Below are positions 53,424-63,869 of a stretch of 64,000 bases of DNA, in pieces (position 1 is the first letter of the stretch; each line of letters starts with the position of its first letter). The stretch is from Rugalucina vietnamica (taxonomy: Eukaryota > Mollusca > Bivalvia > Lucinida > Lucinidae): the NCBI GenBank assembly GCA_964017185.1, contig OZ024875.1, positions 33,241,456 to 33,305,455 of the forward strand, written 5' to 3'. The translations under genes were made by a program, and so were the position numbers. The notes below the pieces were generated by a model that was not told the origin of the DNA, did not search any database, and saw nothing but the letters and a program-made list of their open reading frames with translations.

Positions 53424-53484
53424 ATGGACGACCTTTCACCGGTTATAACTCCGGATGGCAGGACCATCAACATAGAAGAGCTTG
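53424..53484 (+). CDS. pseudocaspase-Roc exon 1
   Basis: ATG at 53424 in a good context (CAGATGG), 20 codons (MDDLSPVITPDGRTINIEEL), phase 1 out before GTATGA. There is no CARD or DED: the prodomain is short. Confidence 0.6.
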
Positions 53485-62400: not shown

Positions 62401-63869
62401 CTGTATTTAGTGACATGACTATTCAACTATGCCAGTTCCATAAACTAGAGATGCATATCTTAAAAATTTGATAGAAAATCAGTGAAAAAGTTCCCGAATT
62501 TTAGAGAAATACACATGTTTGGCTATAGGGGGTGTCTTATTAGGCACATGAATTGGCATGTCATGACGTCACAGAGATAAGTAGAAGGTGCTTTCAGAAA
62601 GGCAATAAACAATTTTGGTAAATTTGACAGTCTGAAAAATATATACACACATATCAAAATATGCTTAACTTTATGCCATAAGTAAATACTCTGCATTAAT
62701 AGAGCCTCCGTTGTGTATTAGTTAAGTTTCTCGCTTTGTATTTAGGGATCATGGGTTTAAAACAGGGCCTCTACAGCCTTCCAGATATTTTTTATTTGTC
62801 AGCATGTGATATTCCCGTATGTGATAGCCTGTTAGTCGGACGCAAAAGCCTGGCTCAGCAATATTAGTTCCAGCGTGGGGTAGAGAATAGAGTAGTTAAG
62901 AGTAATTATGAACATATAAAGCAAACTCTTACAAACATATGCCGAATACGTTTAACATGCAGAATGCGTTTAATAATGTTTACATCTTTGGGTGTCCGGA
63001 TTTTTAGGAGGAGTATATAACACCTTTGCAAAATAACACACAATAAACTTCAAGGCATGAATATTTGTAACTTTAGTAATGTCTAAGAAAACAATTGTTC
63101 TTCAGTCATGCCCGAAGAGATAAGGAACATGGATCCGGGAGATATAGAACTGTACCTGCAAATGTTGGAGACAAGCCGCATGAGTAATTACAACGTTAGA
63201 TTAATGTTTGTCGGGCTGTATGGAGCAGGAAAAACTAGTCTGGCAAGAAGAATTATGGGAAGGGATATATCGGATGTGACAAGCACGGACGGAATAGATG
63301 TTTACATAGGCAAATGCAGAGTTAACTTGAACGATCAAAGTTGGGTCACACTTGAAGGTAATCTATAAATTCAGACCTCTTGATGTTGTGTTTATTTTGA
63401 TTTTTTTTACTTTTTTGTTGACCAGTCGTTGCAAAAGTGGGAGGCATTGATAGGCAAAGGAAAGTGTTATATTCTACTTTAGATTCTTTTAATACTTATT
63501 CTCTGTGACGAACAAAATACATTTGATTATATGAGGTCCCTTCCTAAAATGGTTTTGTTTCGTTTCAAAGATACACAGACCAATACACCGTACACGAAAC
63601 TGGCACGACTCCTGATTATTGACGAAAAGTCCGAGTCACGTATCCCAAACATCAAAACCCTAGAATATCCGGCAGAGGAGTCAGAGATCGACACACATTT
63701 AGAAGATGAGAACACCGCTGACCCAGATCTTAAAGCCGACATAGACGATAGACACAGTGGTGCTGAAGGCTACGTCAATGTAGAAGTATCAAGCAAGAGA
63801 TTTCGGTCCGACAGTGATGCAAACGTCCAATTATCCCCCAGTCAAGAACCAATGGAATTTGAAAACATA
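53424..63869 (+). CDS. pseudocaspase-Roc fusion gene, truncated at the right edge
   Basis: Nine exons join with matching phases: 53424-53484, 53988-54088, 55213-55350, 56234-56411, 58560-58637, 59280-59359, 59955-60033, 63106-63357 and 63571-about 63869. Residues about 54-238 are a caspase-like p20/p10 fold: RGRALLISNTGY strand, ADSFIVIIYG strand, KGKPKLLHVIG strand, GVMFYIYALCMFVHEL helix and TLTKEFFFFP as the last strand. The catalytic histidine (S-H-G of caspases) falls at Y126-G127-P128, and the catalytic cysteine (Q-A-C-R-G) at asparagine 161; the S1 arginine loop is shortened. It cannot be a working protease. From residue 239 a Roc GTPase domain follows with an intact P-loop (G275 to T282). 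COR and any C-terminal domain would lie beyond the window. Exon phases make one transcript the simplest reading, but a 3.1-kb intron separates caspase and Roc parts, so two adjacent genes remain possible. Confidence 0.75.
53510..53715 (+). repeat. interspersed repeat, copy 2, in intron 1
   Basis: Diverged copy of 51485-51700 (CCCATCATTATCA, CATTTTTCGATGAAATTTTT, ACAGGCTTAA). Confidence 0.6.
53988..54088 (+). CDS. pseudocaspase-Roc exon 2
   Basis: Acceptor TCGTATTTCAG, donor GAC|GTAAGT; phase 1 in, phase 0 out. It encodes DKTYDQWVHTGREIAITKCA and AVQYLRNPD, a linker to the caspase fold. Confidence 0.65.
54089..55212 (+). other. pseudocaspase-Roc intron 2
   Basis: No repeat or coding signal recognised over about 1.1 kb. 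Confidence 0.5.
55213..55350 (+). CDS. pseudocaspase-Roc exon 3, first caspase-like strand
   Basis: Acceptor ATCGTTTTAG, donor CAG|GTATGC, phase 0 both sides. It encodes VYRLTRHIRGRALLISNTGY and LLKNLFEQLQFRIGIY. The caspase pattern (Y.l...RG.aLii.n, then a helix and LgF.v) is visible, but the arginine-containing loop that binds the P1 aspartate in active caspases is missing. Confidence 0.75.
55497..56125 (-). mobile_element. LINE-like 3' copy in intron 3
   Basis: AAGGTACGAGTAGGCAATAA at the left and GCGTGAAATTAATGAAGGCA at the right are the inverse of the 37018-37690 segment. Confidence 0.65.
56234..56411 (+). CDS. pseudocaspase-Roc exon 4, dead catalytic region
   Basis: Acceptor AATTGTTCCAG, donor ATAG|GTGTGT; phase 0 in, phase 1 out. 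It encodes EVRSIIEREAQKSD, ADSFIVIIYGPPDD and LLKGKPKLLHVI. Both active-site positions fall in or at the end of this exon and neither has its catalytic residue. Confidence 0.8.
56412..58559 (+). other. pseudocaspase-Roc intron 4 with a four-fold repeated motif
   Basis: A motif close to TGCAACCANNCGGCACATC occurs at 56839, 56938, 57012 and (diverged) 57090. The remainder, including a GC-richer stretch around 57150-58080, resembles nothing else in the window. Confidence 0.5.
58560..58637 (+). CDS. pseudocaspase-Roc exon 5, intersubunit region
   Basis: Acceptor ATTTGGCAG, donor CTACAG|GTGTGT, phase 1 both sides. It starts GNDTIVQQVVQV right after KLLHVI, where active caspases have QACRG. Confidence 0.7.
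58695..58916 (+). repeat. (GATA)n microsatellite, about 220 bp
   Basis: About 55 GATA units with two GACA variants near the end, 57 bp after the exon 5 donor. Confidence 0.98.
59280..59359 (+). CDS. pseudocaspase-Roc exon 6, p10-like helix
   Basis: Acceptor GAATATTTCAG, donor ATT|GTAAGT, phase 1 in, phase 0 out. GFNGVMFYIYALCMFVHELS matches the caspase small-subunit pattern (dGs.fi..lc..l.e). Confidence 0.75.
59955..60033 (+). CDS. pseudocaspase-Roc exon 7, last caspase strand
   Basis: Acceptor CATGTTTCAG, donor CCCAG|GTCTCA, phase 0 in, phase 1 out. It ends CTLTKEFFFFP, the equivalent of the StL.K.lyF.P end of caspases. Reading through the donor reaches a stop 30 codons later. Confidence 0.75.
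60121..61022 (-). repeat. three tandem copies of the 370-bp repeat in intron 7
   Basis: TTAGATCCTTTGGAAGCAGT begins each copy (about 60127, 60501 and 60875; spacing about 374 bp). The first two are almost identical over their length, including AATACTGTTAAGAA(G/A)ATTAT; the third is cut short. They are inverted relative to the array at 37700. Confidence 0.85.
61563..61725 (-). repeat. interspersed repeat with GGGCCATACCGCGGTTTTCG core
   Basis: Inverted copy of the family at 17845 and 21795, in intron 7. Confidence 0.65.
61726..62699 (+). other. intron 7, unassigned stretch
   Basis: No coding frame of note and no repeat family recognised. Confidence 0.5.
62700..62880 (+). mobile_element. degenerate SINE
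   Basis: AGAGCCTCCGTTGTGTATTA followed by GTTAAGTTTCTCGCTTTGTA is the mutated head of the 14491/48430 family; the B box is poor (TCATGGGTTTAAAAC). Confidence 0.55.
63106..63357 (+). CDS. pseudocaspase-Roc exon 8, Roc GTPase domain start
   Basis: Acceptor TTGTTCTTCAG, donor GAAG|GTAATC, phase 1 both sides. It encodes a helix (DPGDIELYLQMLETSRMS) and then VRLMFVGLYGAGKTSLARRI with a perfect Walker A motif, and TSTDGIDVYIG as switch I with its threonine. An in-frame ATG two bases into the exon could serve as an independent start. Confidence 0.88.
63571..63869 (+). CDS. pseudocaspase-Roc exon 9, acidic insert of Roc (3' limit uncertain)
   Basis: Acceptor CGTTTCAAAG in phase 1. The exon is rich in D and E (EESEIDTHLEDENTADPDLK) with serine patches. 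A phase-0 donor ATA|GTATGG at 63869/63870 is proposed by analogy to the homologous exon 29288-29089; otherwise the frame runs to a TGA at 63885-63887. Confidence 0.6.

Follow-up and report, generated by a model that had tools for sequence, protein, structure and literature searches.

Caspase-like pseudoenzyme exons upstream of a putative Roc-type G domain in the bivalve Rugalucina vietnamica: one gene or two neighbours

Vertebrate FLIP(L), also known as CFLAR, uses a caspase domain devoid of the catalytic histidine and cysteine as a partner-binding module, and pairs with caspase-8 through this dead domain (PMC7586951). A locus of the bivalve Rugalucina vietnamica is described here that appears to encode another such protein. 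It lies at positions 53424-63869 of a stretch of 64,000 nucleotides (contig OZ024875.1 of GenBank assembly GCA_964017185.1, positions 33,241,456 to 33,305,455, forward strand), which is called the window and whose coordinates are used throughout. Its sequence supports a protease-dead caspase homologue, downstream of which the same strand carries the predicted first part of a Roc-type G domain. Whereas the catalytic residues of FLIP(L) are replaced (R315, Y360) and the protein holds tandem DEDs, several active-site stretches of the Rugalucina protein are shorter in alignment, Pfam matched no DED in the predicted protein, and a Roc-type GTPase may follow.

Degenerate caspases have also been reported from bivalves. 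The mussel protein Mg2-like has neither catalytic residue, the oyster protein Cg3A has a tyrosine in place of the histidine, and most members of the Cg3/7-like group consist of only a p20 subunit with a highly diverse active site, one of them keeping the histidine (PMC7836458). The 46 bivalve caspases with both subunits in that study differ from the present locus in carrying CARD, DED, DD or DSRM prodomains or none, and a Roc domain goes unmentioned in its main text (PMC7836458). Raptor resembles the Rugalucina protein in having, at the N terminus of a larger signalling protein, an inactive caspase-like domain, which binds the substrates of another enzyme (PMC6325617). However, HEAT and WD40 repeats follow it instead of a G domain, and the sequence searches made here returned no Raptor match. 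In bacterial conflict systems, around 70% of the caspase domains found in one effector position are described as inactive (PMC7159879).

Roc domains, for their part, have been shuffled onto several kinds of signalling parts. Roc-COR is joined to TIR or MyD88-like parts in Aplysia (PMC9334734), and in sea anemones it has kinase, death and TIR domains as partners (PMC5094078). A study of brown algae, which names kinase, death, TIR and helicase domains as N-terminal Roc partners in other organisms, gives LRR, ANK, WD40 and TPR as further partners, and the word caspase is absent from the sections considered here (PMC11378527); in the Rugalucina locus, any COR domain would lie beyond the window. 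The TNFR-caspase and LRR-caspase hybrids of amphioxus are another case in which domain shuffling fused a caspase domain to unusual signalling domains, but they keep QACXG and were judged likely active, and Roc is likewise unmentioned in the text considered (PMC2575513). The parts of the Rugalucina locus are of known kinds, and what would be new, to judge from the papers considered, is their pairing. An earlier note on this DNA, written by a model from the letters alone, was aware of no described pseudocaspase-Roc-COR architecture. Among the matches listed in a search of the open-licence literature (titles and beginnings of abstracts, protein databases being outside its scope) there was no caspase-Roc protein, which is weak evidence and leaves that statement uncontradicted.

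Exon structure and the caspase-like part

The exons were read directly from the DNA and joined by script. GT/AG sites border the exons, with the phases in agreement throughout; only the end of exon 9 is open. The features are as follows.

53424-53484, plus strand: exon 1, start codon and beginning of the prodomain (MDDLSPVITPDG...)
53988-54088, plus strand: exon 2, short prodomain, in which Pfam recognised no domain above cut-off
55213-55350, plus strand: exon 3, in which the caspase-like large subunit is predicted to begin with a strand and a helix; L1 shorter by 13 residues than in caspase-3
56234-56411, plus strand: exon 4, remainder of the large subunit (..DSFIVIIYGPPDDF..LLKGKPKLLHVI), without SHG
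58560-58637, plus strand: exon 5, starting where the QACRG motif has been lost; holds the linker and the first part of the putative small subunit
59280-59359, plus strand: exon 6, putative small-subunit helix (FYIYALCMFVHEL), without the SWR (L3) motif
59955-60033, plus strand: exon 7, end of the putative small subunit with TLTKEFFFFP; may run on to 60048, where a stronger donor keeps the phase
60112-61022, no strand assigned: dispersed repeat in proposed intron 7, about 2.4 tandem copies, 98% alike, each unit being about 373 bp long
63106-63357, plus strand: exon 8, part of a Roc-like G domain (P-loop GLYGAGKT, switch I TSTDGIDV), with its own ATG at 63108
63571-63869, plus strand: proposed exon 9, acidic open frame without G3 motif or Pfam match, ending at a weak donor

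The donor of exon 7 and the acceptor of exon 8, on the same strand, are both of phase 1, and the nine exons give a single continuous frame of about 423 codons up to a possible donor at 63869, with no frameshift or premature stop, their borders having been chosen to be open. The seven exons up to 60033 proposed in the earlier note, their TLTKEFFFFP end and the phase-1 match with 63106, said to yield about 420 codons, are all reproduced, the exons exactly. Exon G+C is 0.42-0.49 against 0.31-0.41 in the introns, and frames as long as exon 8 and exon 9 are open at random places of the window with p=0.011 and p=0.005, respectively (20,000 draws each); with borders picked by eye, these figures are descriptive and do not amount to a joint test.

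Sequence comparison establishes the large subunit as a caspase homologue. Pfam Peptidase_C14 matches residues 65-157 only, at 21.7 bits against a gathering cut-off of 21.4, so that the profile search proposed in the earlier note came out positive by a narrow margin. With phmmer, the top match of the core (residues 56-238) among solved structures is an ancestral effector caspase (E 0.019); caspase-1 and caspase-2 chains mostly follow at E 0.26-1, a range that also contains unrelated proteins. The local alignment to human caspase-3 scores 71, a value reached by none of 500 shuffles (mean 30.0 +/- 4.5, maximum 49); for caspase-7, 8 of 500 shuffles reach the observed score. A small subunit (p10) is likely present as well. 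One reason is the C-terminal TLTKEFFFFP, aligned by phmmer with VTLTRCFYLFP at the end of caspase-1, if at no more than 1.5 bits. A search of NCBIfam gave nothing over cut-off. WD40 repeat chains were the top PDB matches of the whole caspase part, and were dismissed as repeat artefacts because they matched the prodomain copy by copy, at less than 5 bits each in the four printed alignments.

Neither catalytic residue is found. No histidine stands at the SHG position in the phmmer or MAFFT alignments, and the cysteine of QACxG is absent from the MAFFT alignment. Relative to caspase-3 and caspase-7, the MAFFT alignment leaves the query shorter by 13 residues at L1, by 9 with SHG, by 11 with QACRG, by 9 with the SWR motif of L3 and by 16 before the C-terminal motif. 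Three printed phmmer alignments cross the SHG site, with a gap in two; the ungapped one, to an ancestral caspase-6, puts G-P-P opposite S-H-G. The placement of gaps is uncertain at this identity, the shortening less so. Accordingly, of the claim that the catalytic positions had become Y-G-P and I-G-N, the loss of both residues stands, but these triplets are just one possible reading, and may reflect missing loops instead of substitutions. The proposed pseudocaspase is supported by the C14 match, the alignment to caspase-3 and the loss of both residues; its small-subunit match is weak.

The stretches RGRALLISN, GKPKLL and TLTKEFFFFP of the core are retained and the losses are located in loops, a pattern that looks like selection and not random decay. 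The shortened stretches are those that presumably would make up the substrate groove. As the border between exons 4 and 5 falls at the position of the catalytic cysteine, a skipped exon was searched for, and a hidden catalytic exon in intron 4 was rejected, since neither a motif scan of 53401-63110 nor a strict search for AG..GT exons in introns 4 and 5 turned one up. In the three plus-strand frames of 53401-63110, SHG, AC[RQ] and SW[RK] had zero matches, in a scan that would miss a motif split by an intron, and [QHRK]xCxG matched once, in KKCYG at 62195, which lies between exons 7 and 8 and is unrelated. The same patterns gave 7 matches on the minus strand. For a CARD or DED adaptor upstream, six of the 19 plus-strand open reading frames (ORFs) of at least 40 residues listed for 49300-53500 were compared with Pfam, without a match at E 0.1.

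The protein searches brought up no relative: the spliced protein of 423 residues drew 4292 candidates, none of which reached E 0.01, and the caspase part drew 236, none of which reached E 0.1. These misses say little on novelty, because the searched collections seem to lack metazoan relatives. Within the window, tblastn at E 20 gave, besides the exons themselves, only matches of E 0.59 or worse, and thus no paralogue.

The GTPase part and the junction

Exon 8 contains the P-loop GLYGAGKT from its residue 36, in agreement with the intact P-loop of the earlier note, followed by a switch I read from the sequence as TSTDGIDV. Both features are shared with Roco proteins, that is, LRR-Roc-COR proteins, LRRK2, DAPK1 and the invertebrate forms with TIR or death domains; the TDGIDV-like switch I is what we take to be the Roc form of the motif, its GIDV presumably favouring Roc over Arl3 with GFNI. 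The best Pfam family for exon 8 is Roc (E 0.0026), with Arf and MMR_HSR1 close behind. A comparison of exon 8 with viral contigs gave 25 stretches, none of which was confirmed. The window is taken to hold the first part of a Roc-type G domain.

Exon 9 is acidic, with 24 D/E against 10 K/R, and its ORF has no Pfam match; DxxG (G3) and [NTH]KxD (G4) are absent from exons 8-9, and [DE][FLYVI][AG]G is absent from the three plus-strand frames between 63357 and the window end at 64000. The DxxG region is described as one of the best-conserved stretches of Roco proteins (PMC6337361), so that its absence means either that the window stops inside the G domain or that exon 9 has been misjudged. The Roc-COR switch claimed earlier was not borne out in this respect, as only P-loop and switch I were seen in the window, with no COR.

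The explanation put forward here is that of one gene, in which a pared-down, caspase-derived pseudoenzyme would be joined in phase 1, by a splice from 60048 or 60033 to the acceptor at 63106, to a Roc-type GTPase continuing past the window; it is tentative, and falls somewhat short of an even chance. In its favour, the parts share strand and phase, and exon 7, if unspliced, runs into a repeat. Splice sites were scored with weight matrices. A donor CCT|GTAAGA at 60048, 15 bases past 60033, scores 1.62, and keeps phase and frame with five more codons. Several observations weigh against a single gene of this kind. The donor at 60033 (CAG|GTCTCA), with -3.16, ranks last among the eight donors of exons 1-8, as does the exon 8 acceptor, with -1.95, among the ten acceptor sites that were scored; the 3072 bases between them would form the longest proposed intron, and agreement of phase by itself is a one-in-three event. 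The ATG of exon 8 stands two bases past the acceptor, with a purine at -3. The ATG of exon 1 sits right behind an AG acceptor, with an in-frame TAG two codons upstream, and each of these two exons has the look of a first coding exon preceded by a non-coding one. The similarity of the small subunit is also weak: its score alone is reached by 4 of 500 shuffles for caspase-3 and 156 of 500 for caspase-7, and it obtains -1.9 bits in a hidden Markov model built from two caspase sequences. Likewise, the Pfam Roc match of the part within the window, at whose end the G domain breaks off, reaches 18.4 bits against a cut-off of 27, a negative outcome for the profile search proposed for this half, and among solved structures Arl3 (E 0.0019) comes ahead of the Roc domain of LRRK2 (0.5 and worse).

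Two neighbours on the same strand would explain the locus equally well, and are considered just as likely as the single gene. A lone pseudocaspase would then end after exon 7, or with an unrecognised last exon, and be followed by a Roc-type GTPase gene with 63106-63357 as first coding exon and ATG at 63108, this exon being reached by splicing from a non-coding one, or else transcription starting just ahead of it. Exon 8 may open such a second gene since its ATG lies so close behind the acceptor, as in exon 1, and has a purine at -3, and the weakness of both the 60033 donor and the 63106 acceptor points the same way. However, a single gene and the main form of the two-gene explanation use the exon 8 acceptor alike, so that its low score leaves their relative likelihood unchanged. 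Executioner caspases typically terminate no more than a few residues from the LTKEL motif, and exon 7 ends just where they do. An AATAAA, the first 3' of exon 7, stands at 60114, and lone degenerate caspases have been reported in oyster and mussel (PMC7836458). Against this, the frame of exon 7, read through both donors, overruns the caspase end and meets its first stop only at 60131; this stop and the AATAAA, which precedes it, both belong to the dispersed repeat beginning at 60112, and exon 7 is for this reason a poor terminal exon. The stronger donor at 60048 suggests, moreover, that it is spliced onward to something. Additional coding sequence was looked for between exons 7 and 8, and three of the 11 plus-strand ORFs of at least 40 residues wholly within 60034-63105 gave no Pfam match.

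It is improbable that the locus is decaying or chimaeric, with a caspase copy drifting out of its loops beside a Roc gene fragment and no functional protein made. The absence of several loop stretches and of the two catalytic residues, the dispersed repeats in introns 1, 3 and 7 and the weak donors of exons 1, 7 and 9 speak for decay, but the nine exons are intact within their chosen borders, exon G+C remains above that of the introns, and the three core stretches survive while the losses sit on loops, which looks like selection. Taken together, the earlier observation is partly confirmed and its interpretation half supported: strand, phase and the run of unspliced exon 7 into a repeat speak for the in-frame join it claimed, but the splice sites are weak and two genes fit equally.

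Repeats and neighbouring genes

Diverged copies of the repeat of about 373 bp (about 74-88% alike) occur at 36407-39068 and 17126-17341, mostly in the opposite orientation. Another dispersed repeat is present at 1077-1261, 36961-37145, 40863-41050 and 55946-56133, and both Rfam matches to SECIS_1, a selenocysteine insertion element, lie within its copies, one at 1124-1191 on the minus strand (38.8 bits, cut-off 35) and one at 37031-37098 on the plus strand (31.5 bits, under that cut-off). The copy at 55946-56133 had no SECIS_1 match, and a search at lower threshold left out the copy at 40863-41050. A long GATA microsatellite occupies 58695-58907, within intron 5.

A Pfam scan covered 10 of the 140 ORFs of at least 70 residues. 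Those at 42963-43502 (minus strand) and 16517-16942 (plus strand) match the C-terminal region of acid sphingomyelinase at 92.5 and 74.8 bits, respectively, and probably belong to two sphingomyelinase-like genes on opposite strands. The ORF at 49073-49393 (minus strand) is metallophosphatase-like, under cut-off. The longest ORF of the window, at 20044-21348 (minus strand, 435 residues), has no Pfam match at E 0.01.

Proposed mechanism and meaning

What goes beyond a dead caspase homologue we infer at every step: that a single transcript joins the caspase part to Roc, that a COR domain follows, that the core keeps its fold, and the mechanism itself. In this mechanism, the active-site loops would have been pared away, leaving mainly the alpha/beta core. 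Because the shortened stretches would form the substrate groove while the core motifs remain, a binding scaffold is the economical reading of these losses. The pseudocaspase core may bind a partner caspase or an adaptor, as do FLIP(L) and the caspase-like domain of Raptor. Nucleotide-dependent changes between monomer and dimer have been described for a bacterial Roco protein (PMC6337361); in the Rugalucina protein, nucleotide-dependent dimerisation of Roc, or of Roc-COR, could pull the bound partners together or keep them apart, and the protein would thereby set a threshold in cell-death or immune signalling. Extended further, the proposal would define a new class of invertebrate Roco proteins, in which a loop-stripped pseudocaspase core replaces the N-terminal sensor and GTP-dependent Roc-COR dimerisation controls the pairing of a FLIP-like decoy with active caspases; this is rather doubtful.

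If the join proves false, what is left is still a strongly reduced pseudocaspase, such as bivalves are already known to possess. The shedding of loops from a core otherwise retained predicts that a binding or dimer surface persists and the substrate groove does not. If the join is true, a GTP switch would be tied directly to a caspase-derived scaffold within one polypeptide, making this an unusual immune or cell-death signalling protein and, besides FLIP(L), a second and structurally more reduced route to a pseudocaspase.

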